A DNA stretch of 64,000 nucleotides from Cellulophaga sp. BC115SP (GTDB lineage Bacteria; Bacteroidota; Bacteroidia; Cytophagales; Spirosomataceae), in assembly GCF_009905545.1 (NCBI RefSeq), contig NZ_JAAALB010000005.1, positions 62,001-126,000 on the forward strand, written 5' to 3'. The position numbers and the translations under genes are program-made. The notes beneath the pieces were generated by a model. It saw only the letters and a list, made by a program, of their open reading frames with translations, was not told the DNA's origin and made no database searches. Shown here in pieces: positions 6,925 through 40,259 of this stretch (its first letter is position 1; each line of letters opens with the position of its first letter).

Positions 6925-8043
6925 TTACACTTGCTTTTTATAGGTCCAAATGGCTAATCCATTGAATACGATGGCGAAGCTCAATATGGCAAAAATATGA
7001 TTCCTGATTTCGTAAATACCTGAACCTTTTATCACAACCAATCTCATGACGTCGATAAAATAGGCAACAGGGTTAAACTTTGTCATAATCTTCGCCCATT
7101 CAGGCATACCATCTATGGAGGTGTACAAACCACCCATTAGGACAAAGACCATTATCATAAAAAAGGCAAAAAACATGGCTTGCTGCTGTGTATCTGAAAA
7201 GTTAGACATGAGTAGTCCAAGTCCCAAAACGGCTAATAGAAAAATAGCTGTAAAGCCAAAAATCACAAGCAAACTCCCTACCGGAACAATACCAAATACG
7301 ACTCTACTGACGGTCAGACCAATAGCAGTTACGACCAAACCCAATACCCAGAATGGAATCAATTTACCCAAAATAAAATGGTGTTTTTTGATAGGCGTAA
7401 CATTGATTTGCTCAATAGTTCCTACTTCTTTTTCCTTTACAATATTCAATGCTGTTAGGAAACTTCCGACCATTGTTACCAAAATAACTAATATCCCAGG
7501 AACCATAAATAGCTGGTAATTCATACGGGTGTTGTACCAAAAACGAGGAACAATATCTAATAATGGCATAGGATTCATTCTTGGAAAGGTAACCCAATCT
7601 GTTCGCACATCCTGATTAAAATCTTTGATAATGGAGTTGAGATACGCCCCACCCATGTTGCCTTTTGTGCCATTTACGGCATTAATCGCAAGTAATAATT
7701 TAGCCTCATTTTCTTTGATTAAGGTTCTTTCAAAATGTGCAGGAATTTCGATGATTACATCAGAATCGTTTTGCTCAACACTTTTGAGTGCTTTTTTGTA
7801 AGAATCTGTATTTTCAACTAATCGGAAATATCCTGAACCGATAATTTTTTGAACCAGCTGTCTTGAATAACTCGAATGGTCGTGGTCGACTACGGCAATA
7901 TTCACGTTTTTTACCTCATAATCGGCTGCTATGGGCAAAACAATCAGCTGGATAATAGGCATCACAAAAATGATACGAATGATCGATGAGTTACGAAATA
8001 TCTGCCGAAACTCTTTTTCTAGTAAAAAAAGTAGTGTTTTCAT
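6925..8043 (-). CDS. ABC-2 type permease of drug exporter (second permease)
   Basis: A 372-residue inner-membrane permease of the YhhJ/YbhR-like ABC-2 family. A first TM near residues 22-40 is followed by a large extracytoplasmic domain (about 45-170) and then five TM segments (from about residue 175). The reading frame is open 12 codons further upstream, but the ATG at 8043 gives the normal start MKTLLFLLEKEFRQ, which matches its partner's MKLFLAFITKEFKH. It is the last gene of the tolC-hlyD-ATPase-ATPase-permease-permease operon. A 114-bp gap with an inverted repeat separates it from the first permease, wider than the other gaps in the operon. Confidence 0.88.
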   Translation of the reverse strand: MKTLLFLLEKEFRQIFRNSSIIRIIFVMPIIQLIVLPIAADYEVKNVNIAVVDHDHSSYSRQLVQKIIGSGYFRLVENTDSYKKALKSVEQNDSDVIIEIPAHFERTLIKENEAKLLLAINAVNGTKGNMGGAYLNSIIKDFNQDVRTDWVTFPRMNPMPLLDIVPRFWYNTRMNYQLFMVPGILVILVTMVGSFLTALNIVKEKEVGTIEQINVTPIKKHHFILGKLIPFWVLGLVVTAIGLTVSRVVFGIVPVGSLLVIFGFTAIFLLAVLGLGLLMSNFSDTQQQAMFFAFFMIMVFVLMGGLYTSIDGMPEWAKIMTKFNPVAYFIDVMRLVVIKGSGIYEIRNHIFAILSFAIVFNGLAIWTYKKQV

Positions 8044-26200: not shown

Positions 26201-27064
26201 CTATGGCTTCTCAAATGCCCATTTTAAGAACACTGGCATAACCTTTCCCCAGGTTTGAGGATTATGTTCGCCACCTTCAACTTGGTGATAATGGGTGTCA
26301 GCATTTGCATTATATCCCTTTTGATGAAGCTCTTTCATCAAATCTAAGGTGTCATCGATGGCGTCGATGATGCCATTATTATTTCTGTCGTCTTTTTCGT
26401 CATTGGTTCCTGCTTCAAACCAGAATTTCAATCCAGCCTTATACAATCCTGCACGCACCAATTTATGAATAATTCGATCGTGTTCGTCGGTATATCCTTC
26501 CTCTCTTTGTCTCCACCACAAAGCACCAGAAAACACTCCGACTTTTGAGAATACACTGGCATGATGCCAAACAATATCAAATGCTGATAAACCTCCTAAA
26601 GAAAATCCTGCGAGCACTCGAGCTTCAGGTTCTCTCTTTAAGGAATAATGGTGCTCTAAATAAGGGATGAGTTCGTTAATGACAAAAAGCGTGTAAAGTC
26701 CAGCTTTTGTTCCTCGATTTTTGTAGTCTGCCTGTGCAGCTGTACCATATTCTAAAATTCTTTCATGATTACAATGAATACCCACCGTCAGAAAAGGAAG
26801 AATATGATTATCGCCTAAAATAGACTCTACACTAGCCTGCATACCAAGCGCTGGAAAGTCTTGCCCATCGTTGACCAAAAGCAATGATAATTTTTGCTGG
26901 TGTTGCGTAGGAATAATGATAGATAAGGTGACAGTTCTTTGAAGATATTGTGAATAAATACTATCGTTTTTATATGTGGTTTGCTGCACTGGTTTAATAT
27001 TTTTTTGTGAGTAGCTTAATGAAAAAAAGAGTAATTGTCCTAACAAGGTTAAAGTCAGTTTCAT
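26201..27064 (-). CDS. Secreted esterase of the enterochelin-esterase/D-type alpha/beta hydrolase group
   Basis: A 287-residue hydrolase with a signal peptide (about residues 1-19). The nucleophile elbow is GFSLGGLSAFD (Ser about residue 153), and the C-terminal HYHQVEGGEHNPQTW supplies the catalytic His. The acid is probably Asp/Glu in FWFEAGTNDEKDD. Members hydrolyse esters of siderophores, acyl groups or sugars; the substrate cannot be told. It is divergent from the esterase that opens the amidoligase cluster, with a 369-bp gap between. Confidence 0.85.
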   Translation of the reverse strand: MKLTLTLLGQLLFFSLSYSQKNIKPVQQTTYKNDSIYSQYLQRTVTLSIIIPTQHQQKLSLLLVNDGQDFPALGMQASVESILGDNHILPFLTVGIHCNHERILEYGTAAQADYKNRGTKAGLYTLFVINELIPYLEHHYSLKREPEARVLAGFSLGGLSAFDIVWHHASVFSKVGVFSGALWWRQREEGYTDEHDRIIHKLVRAGLYKAGLKFWFEAGTNDEKDDRNNNGIIDAIDDTLDLMKELHQKGYNANADTHYHQVEGGEHNPQTWGKVMPVFLKWAFEKP

Positions 27065-27433: not shown

Positions 27434-28138
27434 ATGCAGGAAAGATACATCAAATACTACTCGCATCATTTGGGGGCTGACAACGAAATCTTAATTTATG
27501 GACACTGGGGATATCCAGTGATTGTGTTTCCAACTACCATGGGGCGTTATTACGAGGCCAAAGATTTCAAGCTCATTGACGCTGCCAAAGGTTTGATTAA
27601 TGATGGGAAAGTCAAAATCTATTGTCCTGATAGTATAGACAAATACTCTTGGTATGCCAAACACCTTCACCCTTCAGAGCGTATCCAAAACCATATCTAT
27701 TATGATCAATACCTAAACGAAGAGCTGATTCCTGCCATTCAGCGAGAATGTGGCGTAGCAAAGGTGGCAGTTGCAGGCTGTAGCTTTGGCGGTTTTCATG
27801 CCGCAAATTTTGCCTTTAGACATCCCGACAAGGTTTCTCATCTCTTTACCATGGGAGCTGCTTTTGATATTCGTTCCTTCCTCAATGGTTTTTACAATGA
27901 TCAGGTATATTTTAATAACCCGCCAGATTATTTGCCAAATTTGAATAATGCAGATTTGTGGCAAATGAATATCATACTAGGTACTTGTAACGCGGATTTT
28001 TGTAGACCAGAAACGGAGAGGCTTTCAGGAATACTGAAAAGCAAACATATTGATCATTGGTTAGATGTGCGCTGGCATGGAACGCACGATTGGCCAATTT
28101 GGAGAGAAATGTTTCCAGAATATCTGTCAAGGATTTAA
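27434..28138 (+). CDS. Alpha/beta hydrolase (esterase) of the amidoligase cluster
   Basis: A 234-residue cytoplasmic-looking alpha/beta hydrolase. The nucleophile elbow is AGCSFGGFHA, and a C-terminal RWHGTHDWPIWREMFP supplies the catalytic His. It resembles putative esterases of the D/YbbA type. The ATG at 27434 is preferred over an upstream TTG (27386) because MQERYIKYYSHHLG begins the conserved fold. It is the first gene of a six-gene plus-strand run; the ATP-grasp gene follows after 63 bp. It may release or trim the product made by the ligases (inference). Confidence 0.82.
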   Translation: MQERYIKYYSHHLGADNEILIYGHWGYPVIVFPTTMGRYYEAKDFKLIDAAKGLINDGKVKIYCPDSIDKYSWYAKHLHPSERIQNHIYYDQYLNEELIPAIQRECGVAKVAVAGCSFGGFHAANFAFRHPDKVSHLFTMGAAFDIRSFLNGFYNDQVYFNNPPDYLPNLNNADLWQMNIILGTCNADFCRPETERLSGILKSKHIDHWLDVRWHGTHDWPIWREMFPEYLSRI

Positions 28139-28201
28139 CGAAAAATAAACTTAAAAGAAATTTTATAAAGTTCACTCAACAAAAAACTTACGAATAAAAC
28201 T

Positions 28202-29179
28202 ATGAAGAAAATCGGTATTTTACATGGAATGGAGAATACTTTTCCTGAAGCATTTGTAGAGCGCGTGAATCAGATTGCGCCAAAGGGAATTGTCGCTGAA
28301 AGAGCCTTGATTGATAAAGTAGTTCAAGGAGAATCTTCTGGATATGATGTAATTATCGACCGTATTTCACAAGACGTACCCTATTATAGAGCGATGTTGA
28401 AAAATACCGCCATGGCAGGAACAGCCGTAATCAATAATCCTTTTTGGTGGAGTGCTGATGAAAAGTTTTTTAATAATGCGTTGGCAGTAAATATTGGTGT
28501 ACCTGTACCTAAAACTGTGATTTTACCCTCAAAAGTTCGCCCAGACGATACTTCTGATACCTCTTTTAGAAACTTGAAATTTCCTATGCCTTGGGGCGAT
28601 ATCTTCGATTATATTGGTTTCCCGGCTTATATGAAACCTCACTCTGGTGGTGGTTGGAAAAACGTGTACAAAGTACGTGACGCCGATGAGCTATTTAATG
28701 CTTATGACGAAACAGGGCAATTGGTGATGCTATTACAAGAAGAAATTCTCTTTACGGATTATTTCCGTTGTTACTGTATCGGTGGCAAAGATGTACGTAT
28801 CATGCCTTACGAACCAAGAAATCCTCATCATTTGCGTTATGATGCTCAGCTGCCAACGGGACCAGCTGCTAAGAAACTTTTAGCTACCGTCAAAGACTAT
28901 GTGTTGGCGCTAAACCATGCTCTCGGCTATGATTTCAACACAGTTGAGTTTGCTGTGCGCGATGGTATTCCTTATGCGATTGACTTCTGCAACCCTGCGC
29001 CAGATGCAGATGTTAATTCAGTCGGTCAAGAAAACTTTGAATGGGTGGTCGAAACCTCTGCGAAGTTTGCTATTGACCGTGCCAAAAAGCATAAGCCAGG
29101 AAAAGATAATCTTACTTGGGGAACATTTGTTCGTAGCTCCGTAGCAGGCGTAGCACGCGATAAAATGATGGAAAAATAG
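28202..29179 (+). CDS. ATP-grasp domain protein (carboxylate-amine/thiol ligase type)
   Basis: A 325-residue protein of ATP-grasp fold. An N-terminal preATP-grasp segment (about 1-85) is followed by the ATP-binding core: Lys145 and a Gly-rich loop (PAYMKPHSGGGWKNVYKV), the adenine-binding segment VMLLQEE (Glu180), and metal ligands Glu249, Asp261 and Asn264 (FNTVEF, AIDFCNPAPD). Such enzymes activate a carboxylate as an acyl phosphate and join it to an amine or thiol. Substrates are unknown. It is followed by a GCS2-type ligase, with a 15-bp hairpin directly after its stop. Confidence 0.85.
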   Translation: MKKIGILHGMENTFPEAFVERVNQIAPKGIVAERALIDKVVQGESSGYDVIIDRISQDVPYYRAMLKNTAMAGTAVINNPFWWSADEKFFNNALAVNIGVPVPKTVILPSKVRPDDTSDTSFRNLKFPMPWGDIFDYIGFPAYMKPHSGGGWKNVYKVRDADELFNAYDETGQLVMLLQEEILFTDYFRCYCIGGKDVRIMPYEPRNPHHLRYDAQLPTGPAAKKLLATVKDYVLALNHALGYDFNTVEFAVRDGIPYAIDFCNPAPDADVNSVGQENFEWVVETSAKFAIDRAKKHKPGKDNLTWGTFVRSSVAGVARDKMMEK

Positions 29180-29184
29180 ACCTT

Positions 29185-29221
29185 ATTGAGAACTGTGTTT
29201 GGAAACAACATAGTTCTCAAT
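29185..29221 (+). other. Intercistronic hairpin after the ATP-grasp gene
   Basis: ATTGAGAACT (29185-29194) pairs with AGTTCTCAAT (29212-29221), and GTGTT continues the stem inward. It starts 6 bp after a stop codon and has no T run, so it may be a weak terminator, processing site or mRNA stabiliser. Confidence 0.7.
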
Positions 29222-29245
29222 CAAACCACCCAACCGCAAATAACT

Positions 29246-30349
29246 ATGTCATTATTTACCCTAGGAATTGAAGAAGAATTTCAAACAATAGACCCTGAAA
29301 CGAGAGATTTGCGTTCGCACATGTCCAAAATTGTAGAAGGGGGGAAAATCAGTTTACAAGAAAGAGTAAAAGCCGAAATGCATCAGGCAGTAGTGGAGGT
29401 TGGTACGAATATCTGTTACAATATCCAACAAGCTCGTGATGAGGTAATTTATCTTCGCAAACATATCATTGAGCTGGCTGATGCCCAAAATCTAAAAGTA
29501 GCAGCCGCAGGAACTCACCCATTTGCTGACTGGCAAGACCAACTTATTACGGACAATCCACGTTATGATGCTCTCATCGATGAAATGCGTGACGTAGCAA
29601 GAGGAAATTTAATTTTCGGTCTACATGTCCATGTCGGTATCGAAAACCGAAATCAAGGTCTAGAAATACTTAATGCTGTTCGTTATTTCTTGCCCCATAT
29701 ATATGCCTTATCTACCAATTCTCCTTTTTGGTGTGGTCGTAACACAGGGTTCAAATCCTATCGTTCAAAGGTTTTTGACAAATTCCCTCGTACAGGTATC
29801 CCTGAGTTTTTTGCCTCTGCAAGCGAATATGATGATTATGTCAATTTGTTGGTAAAAACAAATTGTATTGACGATGGTAAAAAAATCTGGTGGGATATTC
29901 GCTTACATCCTTACTTCAATACCATTGAATTTCGTATTTGTGATATTCCTATGCGTGCTGACGAAACAATATGTTTGGCGGCTTTGATGCAGGCTTTGGT
30001 AGCCAAAATTTATAAATTGTTGAAACAAAATCTCAATTTTAGAAGCTACCGAAAAGTATTGATCAACGAAAATAAATGGCGTGCTGCACGTTATGGTATT
30101 CAGGGGAAATTGATTGATTTCGGCAAGCAAGAGGAAGTTCCCTATCGCAATCTTTGTGATGAACTACTCGATTTTGTAGACGATGTGTTAGACGAACTAG
30201 GAAGTCGTCATGAAGTAGAATATATTCGTACAATTTTGGATAATGGCACTGGTGCAGATCGCCAATTGGCCGTTTTTGAGCAATCAGGAGGAGATTTGAA
30301 AAAGGTAGTGGACTATATCGTTGAAGAAACTAAGCTAGGTGTTTTTTAA
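29246..30349 (+). CDS. Carboxylate-amine ligase, GCS2/YbdK family
   Basis: A 367-residue member of the glutamate-cysteine ligase family 2 (YbdK-type). The N-terminal GIEEEFQ (residues 7-13) and FGLHVHVGIENR are hallmark metal/ATP-binding motifs, and WWDIRLHPYFNTIEFRICD is the conserved later block. These enzymes form an amide bond between a carboxylate and an amine using ATP; many homologues outside glutathione synthesis have unknown substrates. The ATG at 29246 is preferred to a TTG inside the preceding hairpin. It is flanked by an ATP-grasp protein and a glutamine amidotransferase, suggesting a biosynthetic chain. Confidence 0.9.
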   Translation: MSLFTLGIEEEFQTIDPETRDLRSHMSKIVEGGKISLQERVKAEMHQAVVEVGTNICYNIQQARDEVIYLRKHIIELADAQNLKVAAAGTHPFADWQDQLITDNPRYDALIDEMRDVARGNLIFGLHVHVGIENRNQGLEILNAVRYFLPHIYALSTNSPFWCGRNTGFKSYRSKVFDKFPRTGIPEFFASASEYDDYVNLLVKTNCIDDGKKIWWDIRLHPYFNTIEFRICDIPMRADETICLAALMQALVAKIYKLLKQNLNFRSYRKVLINENKWRAARYGIQGKLIDFGKQEEVPYRNLCDELLDFVDDVLDELGSRHEVEYIRTILDNGTGADRQLAVFEQSGGDLKKVVDYIVEETKLGVF

Positions 30350-30594
30350 GATTTAAGAAATACAAAATAATATTTCTTGGCTGAATATTCTGACTATTTG
30401 AAATAAAAATTAAATAAAGTTTTTGAGAAATAAAGATTAGGGAAATGTAAAATTTTAGCCCGAAAAATGACTTAAAATGGCTAATTTTACATTCTAATAT
30501 TAAGTAATTAAGCACTTTAGGTAATAAAAGCTAGTTTCTAAAGACAAGTGCTTCCACTAATAATCCCAAAGCATTTCCATCAACTTTGTTTCAG
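30350..30594. other. Widest spacer of the amidoligase cluster, with hairpin
   Basis: A 245-bp spacer. ATGTAAAATTTTAGCC (from 30445) pairs with GGCTAATTTTACAT (ending 30492) with a two-base bulge. A second, weaker pairing joins AAGCACTT (30510-30517) and AAGTGCTT (30546-30553). It may hold an internal promoter or attenuator; no exact TAnnTTTG was found. Confidence 0.55.
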
Positions 30595-31446
30595 ATGAAT
30601 CATAATAGTCTCCGAATAGCCATTCTCGATATGTACGACAACGTAGCCAATGAAGGTATGCGTTGTATCCTAAATTTGATCAAAAACTTTGAGGAGGAAT
30701 CTCATATTCCTTTACAATACAATATTTATAACGTTCGTGCCGAAATGGCATTGCCAGACCTGAGTTATGATATTTATATCTCTACAGGCGGTCCAGGGAG
30801 TCCTCTCGAATCTGGCGAGTCTTGGGAAGCTCCATATTTTACTTTTATAGATTCCATTTTTGCCTATAATCGTGGTGAAGAAGTCATCGCAGGTATTCAA
30901 AAACCTAAATATATGTTTTTGATTTGCCATTCTTTTCAATTGGTCTCTCGTCATTTGGGTATAGGAATGGTTTCTAAACGTAGAAGTACTTCCTTTGGAG
31001 TTTTTCCTGTACATCGTACGACTGAGGCTGGTTCAGAACCATTTTTTGATGGATTGCCAGAACCTTTTTATGTGGTCGACTCTAGAGATTATCAATTGGT
31101 TCGTCCCAACAAAAAGCGCATTAAGGATTTGGGTGTGACTATTTTACGGTTAGAAAAGGAACGTCCGCATGTAAATTTGGAACGTGCTATTATGGCCATT
31201 CGTTTTTCTAAAGAGGTATTCGGGACGCAGTTTCACCCAGAAGCCGATGGCGAAGGGATGTTGCGTTATTTACAAAAAGAAGATAAGCGACAGGCCGTGG
31301 TCAAATCGCATGGTTTGGCAAAATATAATAGTATGGTAGAACAATTGGCCGACCCAGACAAGATTTTGTTGACAGAAGCCGTGATTTTACCTAATTTTTT
31401 GAAAACTGCTACCTCAGCAATTTTCAAAACTACTTCACAGAATTAA
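30595..31446 (+). CDS. Class I glutamine amidotransferase-like protein
   Basis: A 283-residue class I GATase domain. Cys111 sits in the nucleophile elbow FLICHSFQLVSRHLG, His214 and Glu216 in GTQFHPEADGEGM, and the oxyanion strand reads YISTGGPGSPLES. Together these form a complete triad, so it can probably hydrolyse glutamine or a gamma-glutamyl bond. The ATG at 30595 is used; an upstream TTG would add three residues. It may supply ammonia to a ligase or cleave a gamma-glutamyl intermediate, as PuuD-type enzymes do (inference). Confidence 0.87.
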   Translation: MNHNSLRIAILDMYDNVANEGMRCILNLIKNFEEESHIPLQYNIYNVRAEMALPDLSYDIYISTGGPGSPLESGESWEAPYFTFIDSIFAYNRGEEVIAGIQKPKYMFLICHSFQLVSRHLGIGMVSKRRSTSFGVFPVHRTTEAGSEPFFDGLPEPFYVVDSRDYQLVRPNKKRIKDLGVTILRLEKERPHVNLERAIMAIRFSKEVFGTQFHPEADGEGMLRYLQKEDKRQAVVKSHGLAKYNSMVEQLADPDKILLTEAVILPNFLKTATSAIFKTTSQN

Positions 31447-31449
31447 CAA

Positions 31450-31498
31450 CGGATGGCCCTATCTGTTCACGATAAATACCCTCGGATAGGGCCGTCCG
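31450..31498 (+). other. Intercistronic hairpin after the glutamine amidotransferase gene
   Basis: CGGATGGCCCTATC (31450-31463) pairs with GGATAGGGCCGTCCG (31484-31498) with one G-T pair. It starts 4 bp after the stop and ends 10 bp before the next ATG. There is no T run. Confidence 0.75.
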
Positions 31499-31508
31499 AT
31501 TGAAAAAT

Positions 31509-32705
31509 ATGCATAAAGCTTCTCGACAAAACTTTAATGCTCAATTTTCTTCTGATACCTATCAGCAATTCCTTGCATCGATTCACCGTGAATATCCTCA
31601 ACAATTAGATTTTCGAGTGGCGGAAACTCCTGTTTTTGTGCCAAAATCTTTTAAAAATCAATTGCTAGATGCCTGTGAGCATATCATTTCTGTATTAACT
31701 TCAACAGATTTTAAGGAAAAAACAAATAAGGCTATTCCTTACGGGCAAAATGTGCCTCGTGAAAACTTGAATTCTTCCTTTTTGGCGATAGATTTTGCCA
31801 TTTGTGAAAATGAGAAGGGAGAAATTGAGCCTCAATTGATTGAATTGCAAGGCTTTCCTTCGTTATTTGCTTTTCAATATTTTCTTTCAAAACAGTTTCA
31901 AAATCAATATCCTATTCCTGATAACTTTGATTTTCTGTTTAATGATTTGACTCGACCAAAATATGTGGAGTTTTTAAGAAATTTAATTGTCGGAGAAGAA
32001 AAACCTGAAAATGTTATTTTGCTGGAAATTTATCCCGAAACACAAAAAACGAGAATTGATTTTAAAGTCACTGAGGAATTATTGGGGGTAAAGGCAATAT
32101 GCATTACCAAGATTATTAAGAAGGGAAAATTACTCTTTTACGAAGATTCAGGAGAGCTTGTCCCAATCAATCGTATTTATAATCGATTGATATTTGATGA
32201 TTTGGCTAATTATCCTGGGCTTCAAACGGCATTTAATTTTACAGACGATGTAGACGTAGAATGGGTTGGACATCCCAATTGGTTTTTCAGGATTAGTAAA
32301 TACATTTTGCCATTATTCAATCATCAATATATCCCCGAAAGCCATTATCTATCTGATTTTCAAGGAGATTTTCCGAAAGATTTAGAAAATTATGTGTTAA
32401 AACCATTATTTTCTTTTGCAGGAAGTGGCGTGAAAATCAATATTACCGAATCCGACTTACAGGAAGTTGAAAATCCTGCTGAGTATATTTTACAAAGGAA
32501 AGTCAAATATTTACCAGTCATCGAAACCACGGACGGAAGCAAAGTAAAAGCTGAAATTCGTCTATTGTATGGCTGGGAACAAGGAGCTCCCAAACCAACC
32601 TTATTGACCAACCTTGCTCGTTTGTCCAGAGGTGAAATGATAGGGGTGAGGTTCAATAAAGACTTTGATTGGGTGGGGGGAACAGTTTGTTTTATGGAAA
32701 AATAA
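31509..32705 (+). CDS. ATP-grasp-like protein (glutathionylspermidine-synthase-like)
   Basis: A 398-residue protein without signal or TM segments. The C-terminal third has ATP-grasp-type features: a Lys followed by a Gly-rich loop (YVLKPLFSFAGSGVKINI, about residues 300-317), then EYILQRKVKY and KAEIRLLYGWEQG. The N-terminal part holds FLAIDFAICENEKGEIEPQLIELQGFPS, where metal ligands may lie before the ATP loop, suggesting a permuted or GSPS-like arrangement. Family assignment is moderate. The ATG at 31509 is preferred to the TTG at 31500. A hairpin precedes it by 10 bp and another follows 3 bp after its stop. Confidence 0.6.
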   Translation: MHKASRQNFNAQFSSDTYQQFLASIHREYPQQLDFRVAETPVFVPKSFKNQLLDACEHIISVLTSTDFKEKTNKAIPYGQNVPRENLNSSFLAIDFAICENEKGEIEPQLIELQGFPSLFAFQYFLSKQFQNQYPIPDNFDFLFNDLTRPKYVEFLRNLIVGEEKPENVILLEIYPETQKTRIDFKVTEELLGVKAICITKIIKKGKLLFYEDSGELVPINRIYNRLIFDDLANYPGLQTAFNFTDDVDVEWVGHPNWFFRISKYILPLFNHQYIPESHYLSDFQGDFPKDLENYVLKPLFSFAGSGVKINITESDLQEVENPAEYILQRKVKYLPVIETTDGSKVKAEIRLLYGWEQGAPKPTLLTNLARLSRGEMIGVRFNKDFDWVGGTVCFMEK

Positions 32706-32708
32706 GAA

Positions 32709-32744
32709 ATGAAGCCACAAAATCTCGTAATTTTGTGGCTTCAT
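32709..32744 (+). other. Intercistronic hairpin before the aminotransferase gene
   Basis: Perfect 15-bp arms ATGAAGCCACAAAAT (32709-32723) and ATTTTGTGGCTTCAT (32730-32744) around a 6-nt loop. It starts 4 bp after the stop of the preceding gene. The in-frame ATG at 32709 is buried in the stem. Confidence 0.8.
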
Positions 32745-32765
32745 CACATATTAAACATTACGGTT

Positions 32766-33962
32766 TTGATTACGCAGCGTGAGTTATTTTTGAAAAACGT
32801 AGCCCAAACCTCAGATTTTCCATTAGCCTTGGAGATCGAGCGTGCCGAAGGGGTTTATTTATATGACACAGAAGGAAAGTCTTATCTAGATTTGATTTCG
32901 GGTATTGGGGTATCCAATGTGGGGCATCGTCACCCCAAAGTCGTTGAGGCGATAAAAGACCAAGTCGACAAATATATGCACTTGATGGTTTATGGAGAAT
33001 TTGTACAAAGTCCACAGGTGCAATTAGCCAAAGCTTTGGTAGATTCGCTAACCCCAAGCGCAGGAGATAGACCTGTGTTGGACAATGTATATTTTACCAA
33101 CTCTGGCACTGAAGCCATCGAAGGAGCAATGAAGTTGGCAAAACGATACACACAAAGAACAGAGTTTGTATCTTGCTATAACGCTTACCATGGCGCTACA
33201 CAGGGTGCATTGTCGCTATCAGGCAGTGAAAATTTCAAACGAAATTTTAGACCTCTATTGCCAATGACTAAAAATATCACGCATGGGAATATGGCTGATA
33301 TAGAGCAAGTCACCGAGCAAACTGCCGCCGTTATTATCGAAATCATTGGTGGAGAAGCAGGGGTAAGAGTGCCAACCATAGCGTATTTTCAGGCATTACG
33401 AAAAAAATGTGATGAGGTAGGAGCACTTTTAATTATTGACGAAATACAAACTGGTTTTGGTCGCACAGGAAGCTTTTGGGCTTTTGAGCAATTTGGTGTC
33501 TATCCAGATGTAATTACCAGTGCCAAAGGAATGGGCGGAGGTATGCCTATCGGAGCATTTATTGCGAATCAGAAAGTAATGAGTGTATTTAAGGATAATC
33601 CGATTTTGGGGCATATTACTACTTTCGGCGGACATCCTGTGTCGGCGGCAGCATCGCTGGCAACAATTAATTTGATTAGAGGAGAGAAACTGTATGAGTC
33701 AGTTCCTGAAAAGGCAGCTCTATTTCGTTCATTGTTAGTGCATCCCAAAATCAAAGAAGTCCGTAATCAAGGCTTGATGATGGCAGTAGAATTTGCTGAT
33801 TTTGATGAACTAAAGGGGATTATCGACCGAGCGATTGAAAAAGGTTTATTGACAGATTGGTTTTTGTTTTGTGATAATTCGATGCGAATTGCTCCACCTT
33901 TAATCATCACAGAGGAACAAATTAGAACTGCTTGTGAAATTATACTTTCATGTATTGAGTAA
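32766..33962 (+). CDS. Class III (acetylornithine/4-aminobutyrate type) aminotransferase
   Basis: A 398-residue PLP enzyme with the class III motifs GIGVSNVGHRHPKVVE, FTNSGTEAIEGAMKLAKRYT, IIDEIQTGFGRTGSFWAFE and the PLP lysine in TSAKGMGGGMPIGA. It moves an amino group between a terminal amine and a keto acid. I prefer the TTG start at 32766 (MITQRELFLKNVAQTS), because the ATG at 32709 lies in a hairpin and encodes a poorly conserved extension. It is the last gene of the amidoligase cluster and ends at a strong terminator, so it may make or consume the amine joined by the ligases. Confidence 0.88.
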   Translation: MITQRELFLKNVAQTSDFPLALEIERAEGVYLYDTEGKSYLDLISGIGVSNVGHRHPKVVEAIKDQVDKYMHLMVYGEFVQSPQVQLAKALVDSLTPSAGDRPVLDNVYFTNSGTEAIEGAMKLAKRYTQRTEFVSCYNAYHGATQGALSLSGSENFKRNFRPLLPMTKNITHGNMADIEQVTEQTAAVIIEIIGGEAGVRVPTIAYFQALRKKCDEVGALLIIDEIQTGFGRTGSFWAFEQFGVYPDVITSAKGMGGGMPIGAFIANQKVMSVFKDNPILGHITTFGGHPVSAAASLATINLIRGEKLYESVPEKAALFRSLLVHPKIKEVRNQGLMMAVEFADFDELKGIIDRAIEKGLLTDWFLFCDNSMRIAPPLIITEEQIRTACEIILSCIE

Positions 33963-34009: not shown

Positions 34010-34035
34010 GATTTATCATCCTGCATCTAAGCATC

Positions 34036-34074
34036 AAAAAAGGCTATCGAAAATTGTTTTCGATAGCCTTTTTT
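34036..34074. terminator. Bidirectional terminator between aminotransferase and mscS
   Basis: Perfect 18-bp arms AAAAAAGGCTATCGAAAA (34036-34053) and TTTTCGATAGCCTTTTTT (34057-34074) around TTG, with T runs on both strands. Confidence 0.92.
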
Positions 34075-34124
34075 GTGAAAAGTGTTAAAAGTAACCTTTT
34101 TCTTAAACTCAAAAAAGATTCGTT

Positions 34125-38214: not shown

Positions 38215-38820
38215 CTACATATATCTGTCTTGAATCAACATGACAGTCTCTTTAATATTCTTCGCTTTAATTGGATCTCCCAAGGCAGTAAAAGTCCAGT
38301 TGTGATTGAGTTTTTCGATTTTACCCATAATCATAGAGACATATCCACTATAAGTATCGTCTGAGGCAATATTGTAAGTAGCAAAAGTCTGTTGTGGATT
38401 ATGGTTTTTCCCTTCTACAATTTTGATTTTGGCATAAGGAATTGATGCAAAATCTTGTTGTTTGTAGGAGTTTAAATAAATGAAAATCGATGTGACTTTA
38501 GGATTTATTTGCTCAAGATTGATATAAATAATTTCGTTATCCTTGTTGTCGGCGCTGCTATCACCAACTCTATCGTCACCGCTATGCTTGATAGCTCCAT
38601 CTCTGGATTTTAGATTGTGAAAATATACGGTTTCAATTTCTTTTTTGTCACTGTCAAAAAGCGAAACAGACCCATCTAAATCAACGGCAGTAGAATCTTT
38701 CAAAAGCCCAAACAAGAATGAATGTTGAATACTTCCCCAGTCTAGTCCGATACTAATTTCTTTGAGTTGAGTACCGTTTTTCTCTAAAGAAATACGGCTG
38801 TTTTTGGTCAGATTTATCAT
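38215..38820 (-). CDS. TerD-family stress protein (copy 2 in operon)
   Basis: A 201-residue TerD-domain protein. Calcium-binding acidic positions appear in AVDLDGSVSLFDSD and GAIKHSGDDRVGDSSADNKDNE, somewhat diverged from the canonical HTGDNRTG form. TerD proteins bind Ca2+ and occur in tellurite/stress and chemical-defence clusters. Its partner terD is 20 bp upstream and a PspA-like gene heads the operon. Classic terB, terC and telA genes are absent here, so tellurite resistance should not be assumed. Confidence 0.87.
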   Translation of the reverse strand: MINLTKNSRISLEKNGTQLKEISIGLDWGSIQHSFLFGLLKDSTAVDLDGSVSLFDSDKKEIETVYFHNLKSRDGAIKHSGDDRVGDSSADNKDNEIIYINLEQINPKVTSIFIYLNSYKQQDFASIPYAKIKIVEGKNHNPQQTFATYNIASDDTYSGYVSMIMGKIEKLNHNWTFTALGDPIKAKNIKETVMLIQDRYM

Positions 38821-38840
38821 GAAATTAAGGTGTTTTTCTA

Positions 38841-39398
38841 TTAAACGAACATATCAACTAGTGCTTGCAATTCGGAGGTTGAACCTTGAGAATCTGCATA
38901 GAAATACCATTCATTGCCTGATTTTTTGATTCTTGCAAAAACTAGGGAATTTTCTGAATTATGTGAACTATCCAAATCATAATTTACTACCTCCGCCTTG
39001 GTATCCATATCCACTATACGTATGTAGGCATCACGCAACATTCCGAAGGTGTGATTACGGAGTAGTGCTTGGTGTATTGTTACACAAATACAGATTTCGG
39101 TGGCGTTGGGGTGGATATTATCTAGGTTTGCTAAAATAACCTCATCGTCATCATTATCGCTACCAGTACGATTGTCACCCGTATGTTGCACTGAGCCGTC
39201 AGGAGCTTTTAGATTGTTGTAAAAAATAAAATACTCATCAGATAAGAGTTTGCCATTAGCACCCAGAATGAACACTGAGGCGTCGAGGTCTACAGGGATA
39301 GATGCATATTCCCAGCCAAGCCCAATCATCAGTTTGTTGAGCTTCGTCATTGATTTTGATAGGTTGATTGAACCGCCTTTTTTGAGATTGATTGCCAT
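38841..39398 (-). CDS. TerD-family stress protein (copy 1 in operon)
   Basis: A 185-residue TerD protein closer to the canonical form: GLGWEYASIPVDLDASVFIL, FIFYNNLKAPDGSVQHTGDN and RTGSDNDDDEVILANLD supply the Ca2+-binding residues. It is soluble. It lies between the PspA-like gene (84 bp upstream) and the diverged TerD paralogue (20 bp downstream), so all three are probably co-transcribed. Confidence 0.9.
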   Translation of the reverse strand: MAINLKKGGSINLSKSMTKLNKLMIGLGWEYASIPVDLDASVFILGANGKLLSDEYFIFYNNLKAPDGSVQHTGDNRTGSDNDDDEVILANLDNIHPNATEICICVTIHQALLRNHTFGMLRDAYIRIVDMDTKAEVVNYDLDSSHNSENSLVFARIKKSGNEWYFYADSQGSTSELQALVDMFV

Positions 39399-39482
39399 TT
39401 TGTTTTGAGTTTAAGTGTTTTAAAATAGTAAACAGGTTTCAGACTAGAGCTACCTAATTTTTGAAATGGTATAAAATCTTGT

Positions 39483-40259
39483 CTATTTAAAGAAATCGTC
39501 AATTTTTTTCTGTTTATCGCTTTGAGGTTTCTCAGTTGGGTTTTCTTTTGTTTTGCTAAAAAAGTCCTCTATTTTTTTAGCTTGTTTATCATTTAATTTC
39601 AAATCTTTTTCCGATTTGAGTTTTTCCCAATCTTTTTCAATACTTTGTTGAAAGGCAATTTCTTCAAATGCCTTTTTTATTATCGTATCATTTTGCTGTA
39701 ATTCCTCTCGCATGCTTCGCTCATCTTCTTTGATTTGAAACTGCTGTTCCAAAACTGAAATTTGCTCGAATGCAGATGAATTCTCGGAATTTTGTACTCC
39801 ATCCACTAGCTTTTGAGTCTTGGCCGCTTCAACTTTGGCAATCAGCATCTGACCTTTTAGCCGAGTAGACTCTAGGCGAAATTGTAAATCCTGATGCTGC
39901 GCTTCAAGTTGATGAAGTAATTGTTGAGCTTGAGCCAACAATGTTTTATACTCACTAATACGTTCATCGACGAGTGATTTTTTGCGTAACCATTGTTGAG
40001 CCTGTTCCTCGTTGCCAGTTTGTAACGATTTTTGCGCAGCCTGATACATTTGATTGGCTTGCCCTTGAAGTTCCTCCGCTTTGGCGAGAAGACTATGATA
40101 ATTATTTTGGGCAACACGTTTTACTTGTTCGGCATCAGCAATCGCTTTAATGAGTTCTTTTTCGGCCAGCGCCAACAAAACGTTTGGGTCTTGAGGGTTA
40201 GGGTCGGTGGAGGACTTTTTTTCATGGTTAAATAGGATTTGTAGTAAGTCAGACCACAT
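39483..40259 (-). CDS. PspA/IM30-like coiled-coil protein
   Basis: A 258-residue, almost entirely helical protein with the spacing of PspA/Vipp1 (ESCRT-III-like) proteins: a long hairpin of helices at residues about 28-150 (Ala/Gln/Glu-rich, no TM). These bind stressed membranes. Its C-terminus is odd: DKQAKKIEDFFSK and, 20 residues later, DKQKKIDDFFK end, a duplicated acidic-aromatic tail motif that may bind a partner. It is first in an operon with two TerD genes, a neighbourhood known for stress-membrane clusters. Confidence 0.72.
   Translation of the reverse strand: MWSDLLQILFNHEKKSSTDPNPQDPNVLLALAEKELIKAIADAEQVKRVAQNNYHSLLAKAEELQGQANQMYQAAQKSLQTGNEEQAQQWLRKKSLVDERISEYKTLLAQAQQLLHQLEAQHQDLQFRLESTRLKGQMLIAKVEAAKTQKLVDGVQNSENSSAFEQISVLEQQFQIKEDERSMREELQQNDTIIKKAFEEIAFQQSIEKDWEKLKSEKDLKLNDKQAKKIEDFFSKTKENPTEKPQSDKQKKIDDFFK

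Follow-up and report, generated by a model that had tools for sequence, protein, structure and literature searches.

To our knowledge, the physiological role of the YbdK-type carboxylate-amine ligases of the GCS2 family has been open, and the Escherichia coli K-12 record labels YbdK 'putative'. Predicted amidoligase neighbourhoods, in which ligases of several folds lie with peptidases, were reportedly described by Iyer et al. in 2009 through an inference similar in kind to the one made here. Two other E. coli proteins, YgiC and YjfC, are peptide-spermidine ligases in the K-12 record; the available part of PMC12568646 calls them peptidylpolyamine synthetases. The analysis of a 64,000-nucleotide stretch of the 7.08 Mb genome of Cellulophaga sp. 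BC115SP (contig NZ_JAAALB010000005.1, positions 62,001 to 126,000; this whole stretch is the window, and its own numbering is used below) revealed a YbdK-type enzyme in one row with two further ligases and two putative hydrolases. We consider it fairly probable that these five genes, designated A to E, constitute a Bacteroidota pathway which builds a small non-ribosomal amide (pseudo-peptide) by means of three ATP-dependent ligases, with turnover by hydrolases. A first-pass annotation of the window had proposed a six-gene amidoligase cluster comprising A to E and an aminotransferase gene, F. All six open reading frames (ORFs) were found intact, on the + strand and in the order claimed. The names given to A, C, D and F are backed by matches above Pfam cut-offs, and the designation of B and E as ATP-grasp proteins is upheld by their predicted folds, no Pfam family being above its cut-off for either.

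Presence of the six genes was scored in 218 genomes spread evenly over the Bacteroidota, using profiles for B, C, D and E and single proteins for A (at E<=1e-20) and F. A was found in 86 genomes, B in 77, C in 68, D in 52, E in 65 and F in 95. B and C were present together in 62 genomes, B and E in 63, C and E in 60, D and E in 41, and A and B in 74; Fisher p values for these pairs were about 1e-17 to 1e-41 with relatedness ignored. The whole of B to E was present in 36 genomes, B, C and E without D in 22, and none of the four in 135. To control for relatedness, presence was permuted within families (20000 permutations; 90 genomes of 15 labelled families). The pairs seen exceeded those expected (38 against 24.6 for B-C, 43 against 28.8 for B-E, 40 against 24.7 for C-E and 30 against 16.6 for D-E), and not one of the 20000 permutations reached the observed counts for B-C, B-E, C-E, D-E, B-D, C-D, A-B, A-D or A-E. 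A to E are a recurring system, gained and lost together within families across the phylum. The first-pass annotation had named a lack of co-occurrence elsewhere as a ground for refutation; B, C, E, D and A do co-occur, and their joint gain and loss supports the amidoligase pathway that it proposed, although not a six-gene unit including F.

B and E lay within 6 kb of each other in 37 of the 63 genomes having both and further apart in 26; in three single-contig assemblies (G091, G101 and G116) they were more than 0.7 Mb apart. Linkage is therefore not the cause of their co-occurrence. Of the 74 genomes with both A and B, 36 have the two genes no more than 6 kb apart. Beyond the Bacteroidota, B and E were searched in a plasmid collection only, where tblastn gave no match at E<=1e-3 in 72,556 plasmid records, and PHROGs gave no match for B, C, D or E. 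Among the titles and opening abstract lines listed in a literature search, none described this gene set, a comparison with Iyer et al. 2009 being outstanding.

C (29246-30349, +; an alternative TTG start lies earlier, at 29186) is a full-length member of the YbdK/GCS2 group by sequence, motif and curated cut-off. It scored 215 bits against a cut-off of 21 for PF04107 and 561 against 371 for the NCBIfam family NF010039 ('carboxylate-amine ligase'), and it matched E. coli YbdK (1r8g) along most of its length. The motif GIEEE (29264-29278) is invariant in 19 of 19 aligned sequences; a GhExE metal/ATP motif of GCS2 ligases is described in the accessible portion of PMC2588565. No second match to C at E<=1e-3 was found in its own genome, and its counterparts in two loci (L032 and L033) of Flectobacillus, the nearest named relatives, are 98-99% identical. 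Plasmid matches to C were found in 70 records, all less than 60% identical. In the three of them that were inspected (two Paracoccus and one Spirosoma; 36-40% identical) C has no annotated ATP-grasp neighbour, the gene tables being incomplete, whereas C in the window is tied to two more ligases.

E (31509-32705, +, 398 residues; alternative start 31500) scored 16.2 bits against the cut-off of 29.3 for PF03738 (glutathionylspermidine synthase). A structural model built from 46 aligned sequences, drawn from the window and 80 related loci, had a pLDDT of 87.8 and a pTM of 0.89. Comparison by VIA-align gave E. coli YgiC (7uk8) as the best match (Z 25.2, 3.6 A, 343 residues aligned), with human glutathione synthetase (8fbz) at Z 23.7 and GspSA (2ioa) at Z 23.4. 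YjfC, plant glutathione synthetase, trypanothione synthetase and the fungal E-64 ligase Cp1B (Z 21.2) were also matched. The match covers nearly the full length of E, with 25 entries at Z of at least 20 and the next at Z 11.8. The model thus resembles YgiC/YjfC, GspSA and the (homo)glutathione synthetases in overall fold (Z 20-25), while identity to these structures is only 8-14%. In a weak profile alignment, Asp98, Glu115 and Gln117 of E, invariant in 23 of 23 aligned sequences, fall on D, E and N of YgiC, which we take to be the metal site of GspS; the Asp and Glu are kept and Asn is replaced by Gln. A polyamine conjugate as product would fit the YgiC/YjfC-type fold modelled for E.

B (28202-29179, +, 325 residues) is predicted from its model (pLDDT 82) to be an ATP-grasp ligase of the RimK/LysX-ArgX/Ddl type. 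RimK (7qys) was its best match (Z 21.5, VIA-align), followed by ArgX/LysX (ArgX 3vpb, Z 19.9), synapsin and D-Ala ligases; RimK and LysX/ArgX lie at Z 19-21.5, and these together with Ddl at Z 17-21.5. Against this likeness of fold stand an identity of 11-19% and a score of 31.3 bits where the RimK family TIGR00768 has its cut-off at 143.4; hhalign of B with RimK gave a probability below 10%, and PDB sequence searches with B and with E returned weak matches only. A C-terminal tail of 30-142 residues, rich in K, A and P and following the catalytic domain, was observed on B in 53 of 65 Cytophagales sequences (the window counted) among loci L032-L111, for example at L053:6639-7970 and L085:6494-7972; 43 of the 53 tails end in KK or in KK plus one residue. 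Sequences of the window's own clade lack this tail, which reappears in a distant family (L142 and L143).

The two remaining members of the set are hydrolase-like. A (27434-28138, +, 234 residues from ATG, in an ORF opening at TTG 27386) is an alpha/beta hydrolase of the PF00756 esterase type, above the cut-offs of PF00756/PF00561; in all 15 aligned sequences its Ser117 and His218 are unchanged. D (30595-31446, +; alternative start 30586, from which the triad is numbered) is class-I glutamine-amidotransferase-like (PF00117, 29.1 bits against 22.8). The first-pass annotation had called its triad intact, and Cys114, His217 and Glu219 are indeed invariant in 25 of 25 aligned sequences. The nearest PDB sequences to D were two homoserine O-succinyltransferases and one uncharacterised protein; since all these matches are weak, D may be a hydrolase, a transferase or a glutaminase. 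In the accessible portion of PMC2588565, GATase-like thiol peptidases are described next to a different ligase family of GCS2 size, which is a precedent for D as a hydrolase. A role of D as an obligatory amide-forming partner is doubtful: of the 83 genomes with at least one of B to E, 22 possess B, C and E and lack D, which argues against D as an obligatory ammonia donor.

Replacement of single members was seen in several loci. In all seven fetched loci with B and D and no E (L148-L154), which represent 7 of 11 such genomes, B and D flank a second ATP-grasp gene of the same strand. Four of these proteins, when measured, were 451-474 residues long, and one that was scanned exceeded the cut-off of PF14403 (circularly permuted ATP-grasp type 2). 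Because one ATP-grasp has been exchanged for another next to B and D, a ligation of this kind is arguably part of the same pathway. In two loci without D (L160 and L161) an M29-type peptidase lies between C and E, and near relatives of this peptidase were found in 3 of the 218 genomes, each of which has B, C and E but lacks D. An amidohydrolase (c45) beside D or E in four loci was rejected as a specific partner, its relatives being present in 145 of the 218 genomes.

The presence of three ligase designs, accompanied by exchangeable hydrolases, suggests that a small amide is assembled stepwise and recycled. A common pathway for A to E, and the order of its steps, are inferred from folds and families, motifs, gene order and joint gain and loss. 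C would couple an amine to an activated carboxylate, which family precedent suggests is the gamma-carboxylate of glutamate; B would add a further amino acid; and a peptide carboxylate would receive an amino acid or polyamine cap from E. D, with its thiol triad, and the serine esterase A may act as accessory hydrolases or transferases which trim or recycle the product. By analogy, C and E would repeat the logic of glutathione or glutathionylspermidine synthesis, with B supplying one more bond. A narrower version, to which we give a minor share of credence, is that A to E make a glutathione-like gamma-glutamyl or peptidyl-polyamine metabolite beside bacillithiol: C would carry out the gamma-glutamyl step, E the capping and B the addition of the extra residue, D and A would recycle the product, and DinB proteins would conjugate it. 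If the product is of this glutathione-like or peptidyl-polyamine kind, it would represent a new small-molecule system in a phylum with predicted bacillithiol. In either form, an orphan YbdK-type enzyme tied by joint gain and loss to two ligases and hydrolases offers a small, testable pathway in cultivable bacteria, and B and E represent two protein groups with no Pfam family above cut-off.

A number of observations weigh against a common amide pathway for A to E. The composition of the module is not fixed, since partial sets occur: B and D only in seven genomes, B, C and D in four, B, D and E without C in four, C alone in four, B alone in three, and three single cases. Three loci with B alone (L155-L157) contained none of the other core genes and no second ATP-grasp. 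In L158 and L159, which lack D, the row runs B-C-E with nothing in between, and in genome G263 the M29 gene lies far from C and E. The count for A includes paralogues, of which the window's genome itself has one. Contig breaks may explain some of the 26 unlinked B and E cases, and the co-occurrence could come partly from a shared lifestyle. The sequence match of E to YgiC is weak (E 0.009; hhalign probability 46%), and Ala96 of E takes the place of the Arg that neighbours the YgiC Asp. Finally, C and D are separated by about 240 bp and a hairpin lies between E and F; therefore a single A-F transcript cannot be claimed.

Modification or tagging of proteins, with B acting on a protein as RimK does, C acting in the manner of a PafA relative, and E and D adding or removing the tag, is in our judgement an unlikely explanation. 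RimK is the best structural match of B, the accessible portion of PMC2588565 describes PafA, the Pup ligase, as related to GCS2, and tails of at least 30 residues are carried by B in the 53 Cytophagales sequences mentioned above. Against this, the closest folds of E are mostly small-molecule ligases and the window's own clade has no tail on B. The gene rows showed no conserved small ORF, but with ORFs below 90 residues uncalled a small tag could have escaped.

Ordinary glutathione biosynthesis, with C as gamma-glutamylcysteine ligase and E as a eukaryotic-type glutathione synthetase, has a still smaller chance of being correct. A GCS2 enzyme together with an enzyme of the glutathione synthetase fold is the logic of glutathione synthesis, E matches both the human and the plant enzyme, and gamma-Glu-Cys ligase activity has been reported for YbdK, according to a title cited in the available part of PMC2588565. 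This explanation does not account for B, though none of the three ligases is more widespread, and E belongs to no Pfam family above cut-off. The genome also has a match to BshC, of bacillithiol synthesis, at 5e-126 and none to GSH-S_ATP (PF02955, GshB-type), for which 9 of 14 controls were positive. Bacillithiol is predicted in Bacteroidetes in the accessible part of PMC6282198. Taken together, the BshC match, the absence of a GSH-S_ATP match and the predicted bacillithiol make glutathione itself unlikely, though the eukaryotic glutathione synthetase fold of E leaves it a small probability.

The status of F (32766-33962, +), a class III aminotransferase (PF00202, 348 bits, above cut-off), bears on two further explanations. 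This aminotransferase is common in the phylum, as the presence of F in 95 of the 218 genomes indicates (search with the single F protein). F was not associated over the 218 genomes with B (p 0.57), C (0.56), E (0.88) or A (0.33), and it was invariant within the 15 families tested, which leaves no within-family signal. The distances from all 95 F places to the A-E places of the 46 F genomes having any of these genes (one place per cluster) showed F within 6 kb of any of A to E in the window's genome only; the next value was 6.3 kb in G034, a genome of the same family, and then 61 kb. F was therefore rejected as a core member, given no association with A, B, C or E and linkage confined to the window's genome, and the six-gene unit of the first-pass annotation was reduced to five.

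A pathway like the Puu pathway of E. coli, that is, catabolism of amines or polyamines by gamma-glutamylation, with D as a PuuD-like hydrolase and F as a PuuE-like aminotransferase, is very improbable. It resembles the present row in that a ligase, a GATase-like hydrolase and an aminotransferase share one locus, PuuD and PuuE lying there with the glutamate-putrescine ligase. PuuA belongs to another ligase family. D and F are positively associated over the 218 genomes (36 of the 52 D genomes have F; p 2.5e-5, uncorrected for relatedness). F is nevertheless untied from B, C and E and is unlinked to D outside the window's family, and the A-F row contains no oxidase, aldehyde dehydrogenase or other redox enzyme. 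The alignment of D with PuuD is weak, lying around HPE, with an hhalign probability below 10%. A chance row of independent housekeeping genes fits F, but the joint gain and loss of A, B, C, D and E within families contradicts it for A to E unless sampling was badly biased, and we regard it as hardly credible.

Gene order was compared in the best 80 of 409 relatives of C, one genome per species, a set biased to near relatives. In every one of the 80 loci, those genes that were found on the + strand follow the order A-B-C-D-E-F: 55 loci had all six genes, 15 had C-D-E, 5 had A-B-C, 3 had A-B-C-D-E, 1 had A-B-C-D and 1 had B-C-D-E-F, some being cut by contig ends. The row order exceeds chance in these near relatives. 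F lies 3' of E on the same strand in 56 of the 80, at a distance of 200 bp or less in 41. Cultivable relatives with the A-F row include Dyadobacter fermentans and a Larkinella species. On a contig assigned to Flavobacterium (L103, Flavobacterium sp. SUN052) there is a B-C-D-E-F row in which E, compared by eye, looks closest to E of Rudanella-type Cytophagales; this row may be a recent transfer, or the assembly may be mislabelled or mixed.

The hairpin between E and F (32709-32744, +) forms a perfect stem of 15 bp closed by a loop of 6 bases. The ATG at 32709, which is the first in the F frame, is the first codon of the hairpin, and F probably starts at TTG 32766 instead. An identical stem is present in five of five near sequences (the window, L003, L004, L032 and L033) and is absent in L005, a more distant congener. 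In the consensus scan the hairpin was terminator-like on the - strand only, where its T-rich side lies, so that it need not stop transcription coming from E. Separate transcription of F from E is possible. The single strong terminator which the first-pass annotation had placed at the end of the row has a counterpart in a terminator-like inverted repeat 3' of F (34035-34075; 19-nucleotide perfect arms at 34035-34053 and 34057-34075, ending in a T run). The repeat was not listed by the consensus terminator scan, probably because the stem rule absorbs the T run, and the promoter and terminator counts of that scan were near the shuffled mean. An imperfect inverted repeat at 30446-30492, seen by eye in the gap between C and D and outside the computed repeat list, is possibly a regulatory or terminator element.

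Upstream of A, a divergent PF00756 esterase gene, U (26201-27064, -), is kept as a neighbour in 59 of the 80 relatives; it also lies beside B in L161, L166, L168 and L169. Nine Cytophagales loci (L039, L042-L046, L049, L076 and L086) encode a protein of the DinB superfamily between A and B, and the distant L165 encodes one beside D (7015-7494). When two of the DinB proteins were scanned, they scored 45 and 25 bits for YfiT-type bacillithiol transferase (cut-off 160), a weak resemblance.

In E. coli, yjfC and the PspA-family gene yjfJ share an operon-like row, whereas E is in no such row and the PspA gene of the window is 6.8 kb off. This gene belongs to a group at 38215-40259, on the other strand and starting 5.5 kb past E, which consists of two TerD-domain genes and a PspA/IM30-family gene. 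Among the 8-kb flanks of the 80 relatives, those of L032 and L033 alone contained such a TerD-type cluster. The available part of PMC11237479 reports operons in which PspA is accompanied by a GspS-related ATP-grasp.

Two further neighbours were left out of the model as they are confined to one distant family (f41), apart from one case in Arcicella. A histidine ammonia-lyase gene follows B in all five fetched B loci of this family (L194, L195, L204, L206 and L175), with a small ORF intervening in L204; the three of these enzymes that were scanned exceeded the curated cut-off. A protein that is presumably S10-like (one was scanned and had no NCBIfam match) follows C in six of six fetched C loci of the family, and one relative of it lies near E in Arcicella (L036).

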